From a virus, in the IMG/VR virus record IMGVR_UViG_3300017917_003792, positions 1 to 34,084 of that record: a stretch of DNA of 34,084 nt; one strand, 5' to 3'. The translations under genes and the position numbers were made by a program. Positions within the stretch are counted from its first letter, which is position 1, and every line of letters starts with the position of its first letter. The notes beneath the pieces were generated by a model that made no database searches, was not told the DNA's origin, and saw nothing but the letters and a program-made list of their open reading frames with translations. Below, in pieces: positions 7,120 through 8,410 of this stretch.

Positions 7120-7617
7120 ATGAAAAATATAGATGAAATGAGGATTAATTCAAATATCCTTAAAAATGAGAAAGGGACAGCTATAGTAACAAGAAACACA
7201 ATCCTGAATATGATCAATGATTTTAACCACATGATCAAATCCAATGAGGATAGTGTCAGGAAACTGCAAAGATTATTGGAGCATTATCCATTGACTAAAA
7301 AGGTTGAAGTATTTAAGCATAAACCTGCTGATGAGATTATTGCAACTGTCAATCATGTTTTTGATACTGACTGTAGATTAAAAACAAGACACAGGAGAGT
7401 CACAGATGCGAGGCATTGTGTCTGTAGTTTACTAAGGACATATACTGATTTATCACATAAAGAGATTGGAGAGTATCTGTCAACCTTTGCAGATCATACA
7501 ACTGTTATCAGTTCTGTAAAGAAATGCAAAAGTCTTTTAGAGGTGGATGATGTGTTTAAAAATAAGTATAACCAATGCAAAGAAATAATTGAAGGTAGAT
7601 TGAAAATAAATCAGTAA
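7120..7617 (+). CDS. Stand-alone DnaA domain IV-like DNA-binding protein
   Basis: 165 aa. Residues about 68-160 match the C-terminal DNA-binding domain of DnaA: KPADEIIATVNHVF, then TDARHCVCSLLRTYTDLSHKEIGEYLSTFADHTTVISSVKK, with the signature DHTTVI (125-130) and a basic loop KTRHRRVTDAR before it. The AAA+ ATPase (domain III) is absent and replaced by a short helical N-terminus (1-60). It should bind DnaA-box-like sites but cannot assemble the ATP-driven DnaA helix by itself. Next to the organizer gene and its iterons it is likely part of origin recognition, or a competitor of host DnaA. Confidence 0.8.
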   Translation: MKNIDEMRINSNILKNEKGTAIVTRNTILNMINDFNHMIKSNEDSVRKLQRLLEHYPLTKKVEVFKHKPADEIIATVNHVFDTDCRLKTRHRRVTDARHCVCSLLRTYTDLSHKEIGEYLSTFADHTTVISSVKKCKSLLEVDDVFKNKYNQCKEIIEGRLKINQ

Positions 7618-7622
7618 TTTTG
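7615..7622 (+). promoter_or_regulatory. -7 box TAATTTTG at the 5' end of the structured RNA
   Basis: TAATTTTG fits TAnnTTTG exactly. No TTTG is found at the ideal -33 spacing; TTG lies at 7589-7591, so the spacing is too long. With the normal distance, transcription would start at about 7627, i.e. at the base of hairpin 1 and at the ATG of the 27-aa reading frame. Confidence 0.35.
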
Positions 7623-7626
7623 TTTT

Positions 7627-7710
7627 ATGAAGGAGGCAGCCTTCTATATGAACATACTACATTCCCTGATGGGTGCGGAACTGCCTTTCCAATCCCTTCA
7701 GGGATTTTAA
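7627..7710 (+). CDS. Possible 27-aa leader peptide within the structured RNA
   Basis: An ATG reading frame of 27 codons (begins MKEAAFYMNILHS, ends PFQSLQGF) fills the gap between the DnaA-IV gene and the organizer gene and stops 4 bp before the organizer ATG. Its codons are much more GC-rich than those of neighbouring genes because they coincide with the two hairpins. It could be a leader peptide coupling translation to RNA folding, or accidental. The RNA structure explains the base composition better. Confidence 0.25.
   Translation: MKEAAFYMNILHSLMGAELPFQSLQGF
7629..7704 (+). ncRNA. Two-hairpin RNA element with complementary loops (predicted kissing loop)
   Basis: Hairpin 1: GAAGG (7629-7633) pairs with CCTTC (7640-7644), loop AGGCAG. 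Hairpin 2 stacks three helices: TCCCTGA (7663-7669) with TCAGGGA (7698-7704), GGG (7671-7673) with CCC (7694-7696), and GGAA (7677-7680) with TTCC (7687-7690), loop CTGCCT. The two 6-nt loops are exact reverse complements, so an intramolecular or intermolecular kissing interaction is possible. Hairpin 2 is followed by TTTTAATTTT, a weak terminator tract, just before the organizer ATG at 7715. It may be an attenuator or a copy-control-like RNA for the replication gene. Confidence 0.5.
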
Positions 7711-7714
7711 TTTT
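7698..7714 (+). terminator. Possible attenuator before the organizer gene
   Basis: The 3' arm of hairpin 2 runs directly into TTTTAATTTT. The long imperfect stem (14 pairs in three helices) plus a U-rich tract interrupted by AA looks like a leaky intrinsic terminator, which would regulate read-through into the organizer gene. Confidence 0.4.
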
Positions 7715-8410
7715 ATGGCAAAAGACCCTGCAGTATTATTCTATACAAGTGATTTTTTGAGTGGCACATTCTCAATGACTAATGAGGAGGTAGGTATGTA
7801 CATTAGATTATTATGTTTACAACATCAAAAAGGTAAATTGACAGAAAAGGATATGCTAAGCATATGCAAAGCATATGTTCAGGATGTGTATGATAAATTT
7901 GAATTAATTGATGGTTGTTATGTAAACAAGCGAATGCATGATGAATCACAAAAAAGATCAAATTATACCAATTCAAGGCGAAATAATGCTAAAAACAAGC
8001 ATATGGTTGAGCATATGCATGAGCATATGCATGAGCATATGCAACAGCATATGCCTAAGCATATGGAAAATGAAAATGAAAATGAAAATATAAATAGAAT
8101 TAAAAATAAAAAATGTATTAAGCCGACAATTTCAGAAGTTGAGGATTACTTTCTTGAGAAGGGAAGCACAGTCGAAAAAGCAAAACAGGCATTCGATTAC
8201 TATGATGTGGCAGATTGGAAAGACTCAAAGGGGAAACCTGTAAAAAATTGGAAACAAAAAATGTTGGCGGTTTGGATAAATAACTCTAATTTTAACAATA
8301 ACTTTAAATCACCTAAAACGAAAATTGAGAAATATGCAGAATGGTATAACAAACTCACAGCTAATCTCAGCAGCGAAAAAGACAGCGAGGTTAGCGGATT
8401 CATCAACTGA
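7715..8410 (+). CDS. Replisome organizer / DUF1376-type replication initiator with an internal origin
   Basis: 231 aa from ATG 7715; an earlier in-frame start would run through the hairpin element and is rejected. The N-terminal domain (MAKDPAVLFYTSDFLSGTFSMTNEEVGMYIRLLCLQHQKGKL) is the DUF1376/phage replisome organizer winged helix. The C-terminal part (PTISEVEDYFLEKGS, FDYYDVADWKDSKGKPVKNWKQKMLAVW) is typical of the same proteins. Between them, residues about 93-122 consist of HMVEHMHEH-type repeats and NENENEN, encoded by 12-bp iterons and an AT-rich tract. This is the lambda O arrangement: the initiator gene contains its own origin in the linker. Product is expected to bind the iterons and recruit host helicase. 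Confidence 0.8.
   Translation: MAKDPAVLFYTSDFLSGTFSMTNEEVGMYIRLLCLQHQKGKLTEKDMLSICKAYVQDVYDKFELIDGCYVNKRMHDESQKRSNYTNSRRNNAKNKHMVEHMHEHMHEHMQQHMPKHMENENENENINRIKNKKCIKPTISEVEDYFLEKGSTVEKAKQAFDYYDVADWKDSKGKPVKNWKQKMLAVWINNSNFNNNFKSPKTKIEKYAEWYNKLTANLSSEKDSEVSGFIN
7850..7877. repeat. Upstream iteron cluster
   Basis: Two AGCATATG copies (7859-7866 and 7870-7877, 11 bp apart) follow an inverted partial copy (ATATGCT, 7851-7857). They lie 120 bp upstream of the main iteron array in the same gene. Possibly a secondary binding site of the initiator. Confidence 0.5.
7998..8065. repeat. Six phased iterons: replication origin inside the organizer gene
   Basis: AGCATATG occurs at 7998, 8010, 8022, 8034, 8046 and 8058, exactly 12 bp apart. 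The four spacer bases vary (GTTG, CATG, CATG, CAAC, CCTA). The core contains the palindrome CATATG. Immediately downstream lies an almost pure A/T tract. Regular helical phasing plus an adjacent unwinding region is the classic form of an iteron origin; the gene that contains it encodes the likely binding protein. Confidence 0.7.
8066..8120. other. AT-rich tract next to the iterons (putative DNA unwinding element)
   Basis: A run of GAAAAT repeats followed by ATAAATAG, AATTAAAAATAAAAAATG and similar sequence, with very few G or C bases, starts directly after the last iteron. It encodes NENENEN and INRIKNKK. By analogy with lambda ori it would be the first place to melt. Confidence 0.55.

Follow-up and report, generated by a model that had tools for sequence, protein, structure and literature searches.

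Comparison across related phages confirms that the RNA ahead of the replication initiator gene carries a kissing-hairpin structure, in which the loops of two successive hairpins would contact each other within the RNA, and suggests a regulatory effect on replication. It is the comparative data, and not the window alone (the whole 34,084-nt stretch of viral DNA analysed here), that decide that the observation is real. A preliminary description of the window had seen a single odd element. As judged from the compared sequences, it is one member of a modular, hypervariable family, which heads the replication operon while the N-terminal domain of the initiator is exchanged. The element looks like an unreported RNA family present in many Bacteroidota phages.

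The two-hairpin element of the window

The positions previously given for the promoter box, the hairpins and the loops agree with the window sequence (Table 1). The box shares positions with the stop codon of the gene upstream and predicts a transcription start at around position 7627. The loops of hairpin 1 (H1) and hairpin 2 (H2) are exact reverse complements. H2 is composed of three stems (7663-7669/7698-7704, 7671-7673/7694-7696 and 7677-7680/7687-7690). The preceding gene (7120-7617) codes for a 165-aa protein that has the C-terminal DNA-binding domain of DnaA (PF08299) but lacks an ATPase part.

Table 1. Features of the leader and initiator region in the window.
Feature	Position	Strand	Basis
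Sigma-A -7 box, Bacteroidota type, TAATTTTG (TAnnTTTG)	7615-7622	+	TAnnTT[TAC]G form precedes H1 in relatives
H1, GAAGG-AGGCAG-CCTTC; loop AGGCAG at 7634-7639	7629-7644	+	Folding; structure conserved in relatives
Linker, single-stranded, A/T-rich, 18 nt	7645-7662	+	About 13-18 nt in most elements
H2, three-helix, terminator-like; loop CTGCCT at 7681-7686	7663-7704	+	Folding; covarying stems in relatives
T-tract TTTTAATTTT, from H2 to the start codon	7705-7714	+	T-run statistics in relatives
Replication initiator/organiser gene, DUF1376 N-terminal domain, 231 aa; ATG at 7715	7715-8410	+	PF07120, E 4.5e-7; PHROG 9327, primosomal protein
Six 12-bp direct repeats (AGCATATGCATG-like), in phase, inside the initiator gene	7998-8069	+	12-nt spacing

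Folding of positions 7615-7714 gives a z of -3.4, and 2 of 200 shuffled sequences fold equally well. The minimum-energy fold of this stretch places H1 in an alternative register; folded alone, 7629-7644 adopts the H1 of Table 1 at -4.6 kcal/mol, and H2 alone reaches -20.9 kcal/mol. The loop match attains the same score in 3 of 60 shuffles, which for a single sequence is only marginally above chance.

Matching loops in related phages

Relatives of the DUF1376 gene were collected from IMG/VR (80 loci at first, later ~230 in total), the related sequences being mostly metagenomic contigs. The same two-hairpin architecture is found before the gene in many of them, with differing loops of 6-8 nt. 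The loops of H1 and H2 are complementary while their sequence varies between phages. Loop 1/loop 2 pairs include, besides AGGCAG/CTGCCT of the window, ATGCAG/CTGCAT, GGGCAAT/ATTGCCC, GTGGCTT/AAGCCAC, GTAGCCG/CGGCTAC, GTCGCAG/CTGCGAC, GTAGCGC/GCGCTAC, GTCTCAG/CTGAGAC, GTAGGAG/CTCCTAC and GTAGTGTG/CACACTAC. The parsed set of 57 elements (34 distinct cores) has a mean complementarity of 7.0 nt, against 2.7 nt with swapped pairs; the count is in part circular, since only elements whose loops match over 5 nt or more were admitted, and it includes two weak cases (L129 and L133). Some DUF1376 relatives have no element directly before the gene, and in several of these the gene is internal to an operon.

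The unbiased evidence comes from sets selected by their scaffold and from a model search. Alignment A2 brings together 11 elements from a single subfamily, selected without regard to their loops, and 275 of its 275 cells are paired. All seven loop-loop pairs of the kissing helix are kept in every sequence, with none broken and with compensatory double changes at five of the seven. Sliding the partners by 1-3 columns lowers the pairing to 38-55%. Changes affect 13 of 77 loop cells versus 14 of 198 stem cells, a modest loop excess (p 0.02, the cells not being independent). The two hairpins with complementary loops and the loop-loop interaction claimed in the preliminary description are thus borne out by the compensatory changes, both loops changing together and not independently of each other.

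Chance hairpins, or a coding constraint from a 27-aa open frame that starts at 7627 and spans the intergenic gap, would agree with the shuffling result for the window and with the way this frame fills the gap. In the relatives, it is the frame that is lost while the structure stays (ACG replaces ATG in L005, and L003 is frameshifted), and the stems and loops of A2 are fully paired. The comparative data refute this reading, whose probability we consider negligible.

A descriptor scan of 2.13 Mb with the promoter required gave 36 matches, versus 2 with reversed-loop and 6 with complemented-loop controls. Three of these six are real elements, whose loop GTAGGAT passes the control too. With the promoter omitted, 23 matches were obtained versus 6 and 3 in the controls. 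Two patterns describing the H2 scaffold with free loops found a 5-8 nt match kept in every match having an H1; one of their matches is unrelated (L086) and another has a loop match of only 5 nt (L008). A third pattern, built on the scaffold only, led to L231 with loops GTCGCAT/ATGCGAC. Covariance model R1 holds the stems and no loop-loop pairing; it still contains consensus loop letters and so is not fully blind. Its search recovered elements from other subfamilies, among them a new element in a Lutibacter assembly (L122:736-833) with loops GTTGCAG/CTGCAAC pairing at 7 of 7 positions, and new elements in L187 and L219, whose loops match as well. Loop matches elsewhere in the same loci show no excess over the control.

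Three structural details were noted among the elements. In L030 (2876-3000) and L032, H2 has an extra branch, and the partner of loop 1 (GTTCCCC and GTTTCCC, respectively) is unpaired beside H2. Loop 1 shows GTNR in 22 of 35 distinct loops, resembling the U-turn motif, which is a feature of antisense RNA loops. A AAACTTTTTG-like stretch recurs in the linkers of many elements (e.g., L013, L026 and L185) and is possibly a protein or ribosome site.

No Rfam family matches in the window, where C4, isrK and others do not reach the gathering threshold, and nothing relevant appears up to E = 1 in the loci of ten relatives. No report of kissing-loop leaders in Bacteroidota phages was found in the open-access literature, in line with the earlier statement that no such element is known. 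A riboswitch was considered and rejected: a conserved ligand-binding core is absent, the loops are hypervariable and the scaffolds differ between subfamilies. The phage collection yielded no isolate carrying the element, so that host and lifestyle are deduced from the type of promoter and from the Lutibacter assembly. The descriptor has no match in MT837034, in Nonlabens phage P12024S or in 12 kb of a Flavobacterium elemo phage. Thirteen host assemblies gave no match when searched genome-wide by covariance, an empty negative, as this search also missed the L122 element carried by one of them. No tyrosine integrase was matched in the window.

Promoter, transcript end and genomic setting

The TAnnTT[TAC]G box precedes H1 in 53 of the 54 elements with upstream sequence, against a background of 5%, most commonly at a spacing of 4 nt. 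The sigma-A box of Flavobacterium psychrophilum extends from -12 to -5 (PMC9723704); by this measure, H1 would in most elements start at +1 or only a few nt away from it. This is where the box had been proposed to place the 5' end of the transcript. At the other end, a run of at least five T within 25 nt of the ATG is found in 83% of 54 elements versus 8% of 698 ORF starts in the same loci. Together with H2, it substantiates the terminator-like 3' end that the preliminary description had placed before the organiser gene.

Promoter, T-tract and structure share one strand, and a G-U pair that is invariant in A2, next to covarying pairs, supports an RNA of the promoter strand. The -7 box was searched on the opposite strand as well: it occurs near the ATG in 0 of 55 elements and further on at or near background, a result that concerns this promoter type only. 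A classic countertranscript is thus unlikely. The lack of a conserved opposite-strand promoter, together with the lack of excess loop matches elsewhere, indicates that the two loops are each other's partners. A function at the level of DNA or as a primer, in which a cruciform or a replication primer at the origin would replace the expression regulator, could be suspected from the neighbouring initiator gene with its candidate iterons. The promoter, the T-tract and the invariant G-U beside covarying pairs all point instead to one RNA strand, making such a function most improbable.

The element precedes replication initiator genes in the relatives and heads operons of four initiator types. Where the following gene is not of the DUF1376 type, it is an HTH_36 or Lin1244_N initiator, or else a helicase or small gene that precedes such an initiator. 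In several element-headed operons, a DnaB helicase then follows. Between L009 and L080, identity reaches 97% in the element and 96% over the C-terminal initiator part, and the sequences directly after the ATG are unrelated (56%, with a baseline of 55%). Between L009 and L061, the upstream kilobase is 92% and the C-terminal part 96% identical, and the element only 73%. The leader is thus a module heading the replication operon; it is either exchanged or diverges more quickly than the sequences around it. It is separable from the N-terminal domain of the initiator, which argues against autoregulation by that domain. As a separate observation, the initiators at L009 3001, L080 2084, L061 2590 and L045 2584 share the C-terminal part and the upstream kilobase, their N-terminal domains being unrelated, with the domain exchange exactly at the element/ATG boundary.

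The direct repeats inside the window initiator gene, which are followed by an A-rich stretch, are candidate origin iterons and would be crossed by leader transcription. The arrangement would then be as in lambda O, where the origin iterons lie within the initiator gene.

A possible attenuator and its relation to known RNAs

With roughly even chances, the element is the 5' leader of the replication operon and acts as a promoter-proximal RNA transcription attenuator, in which the 5' hairpin kisses the terminator hairpin. A sigma-A promoter would start the RNA at or beside the small 5'-terminal H1. Most transcripts would then halt at the U-tract after H2, giving a compact small RNA of ~88 nt with a hairpin at each end. 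The initiator mRNA would arise only from read-through, and the same transcription would cross the candidate origin inside the gene. Loop-loop contact within one molecule may tune termination; such cis pairing is favoured because the linker length fits and no other complementary site is present. Two points speak against the attenuator: the T-tract of the window itself is broken up and has runs of 4, and no antiterminator structure was recognised.

Two other modes of action in cis were weighed. In translational control, the mRNA would be full-length, and the kissing complex by the start codon would limit ribosome access, the T-rich stretch being the start region. The distance from the end of H2 to the ATG, 10 nt in the window and a few nt in most relatives, suits this reading. 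Nevertheless, T-runs immediately following H2 are ten times as frequent as in front of the other ORFs in these loci, which is what a terminator would show, and start regions in these phages are not generally T-rich; we hold translational control to be unlikely. The put element of phage HK022 consists of two hairpins at the 5' end of the early transcript, which modify RNA polymerase and let it resist terminators further on. A processive antitermination element of this kind would explain why the element lies right at the 5' end of a long operon's transcript. It is, however, very unlikely here: the T-tract after H2 resembles a stop signal, and a polymerase-binding RNA is expected to keep its sequence and not to have hypervariable loops.

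For the attenuator, an additional step in trans can be envisaged. Since each phage type has a loop pair of its own, the released RNA may in addition engage leaders that are being transcribed from sister genomes. The brake would then be set by genome dosage and identity, as in a self-antisense form of P4 CI RNA or of pT181 attenuation. This action in trans is suggested by the private codes, by the somewhat faster change of loops than of stems, by the divergence of the element relative to its flanks, and by the precedents of P4 CI RNA (PMC4825925), pT181 (PMC3753616) and the I-complex plasmids (PMC10724649). This step is the least certain part of the mechanism and is proposed tentatively. Cis pairing would compete with any trans pairing, and the loops, constrained to pair, could vary by drift instead of under selection for identity.

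Such drift is also part of a further explanation, in which the element is a stable structural leader or a stand-alone sRNA, its nuclease-resistant kissing complex acting in cis only. Both ends are hairpins, the linker is long enough for intramolecular kissing, and compensatory changes are expected from a pairing constraint alone. Against this, loops are more changed than stems in close relatives, and the element of L009 and L061 has diverged well beyond both flanks. The stable leader seems rather improbable.

In its most extended form, the attenuator would be a self-antisense system with a lineage-private loop code, the ~88-nt leader RNA acting in trans on leaders of the same code, which we regard as doubtful. 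If true, replication would be set by genome dosage, superinfecting phages of the same code would be excluded and others ignored, and codes would be replaced by recombination, with or apart from the initiator domain. If the attenuator itself is borne out, an uncatalogued RNA family would govern replication across a large group of Bacteroidota phages, most of them uncultured. Its more than 30 matched loop pairs would form a natural set of candidate orthogonal kissing pairs for Bacteroidota, and would allow a direct test of whether the identity of RNA loops serves phages, as it does plasmids, in controlling copy number and compatibility.

Among known systems, the CI RNA of phage P4 (seqA/seqB/seqC) is a same-strand antisense RNA from the leader transcript, with an early stop before the phage replication genes (PMC4825925). 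Same-strand complementary segments ahead of phage replication genes are found here as well. The CI RNA is processed from a longer leader and pairs with two flanking targets, seqA and seqC, whereas the present leader is compact with one partner site in H2; the element has no sequence or Rfam match to CI. In plasmid pT181, kissing hairpins decide termination before the replication initiator gene (PMC3753616). The terminator-like hairpin before a rep-type gene is shared, as judged by H2 and the T-run statistics. In pT181, the counter-transcript comes from the opposite strand, whereas here the matching loop lies within the leader and no conserved opposite-strand promoter is seen, other promoter types being possible. 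RNAI and stem-loop I of the I-complex plasmids (IncK, IncB/O) form kissing loops before rep, and a few loop bases set the compatibility groups (PMC10724649). Those enterobacterial plasmids use an opposite-strand RNA for translational control, in contrast to a phage leader with a terminator-like hairpin.

Like the element, the c4 antisense RNA of P1 and P7 (Rfam C4) is a small phage RNA on the same strand and upstream of its target (PMC12197685, and general background). Its target is an antirepressor operon, and the element shows no Rfam match to C4. The packaging RNA (pRNA) of phi29 has two mutually complementary loops in one RNA, variable between relatives yet matching. It is an oligomerising part of the packaging motor, on which loop pairing between molecules builds a ring, whereas the element is a leader at a replication gene, outside a packaging setting. 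Another conserved structured leader (GCTCCGTCAGAGTA ... GGCGGAGCGTTTTGC) is found before the DUF1376 gene in L015 (~2570-2658), L016, L019 and L023; it has a terminator-like end and no matching second loop, and represents a different RNA type in the same place.
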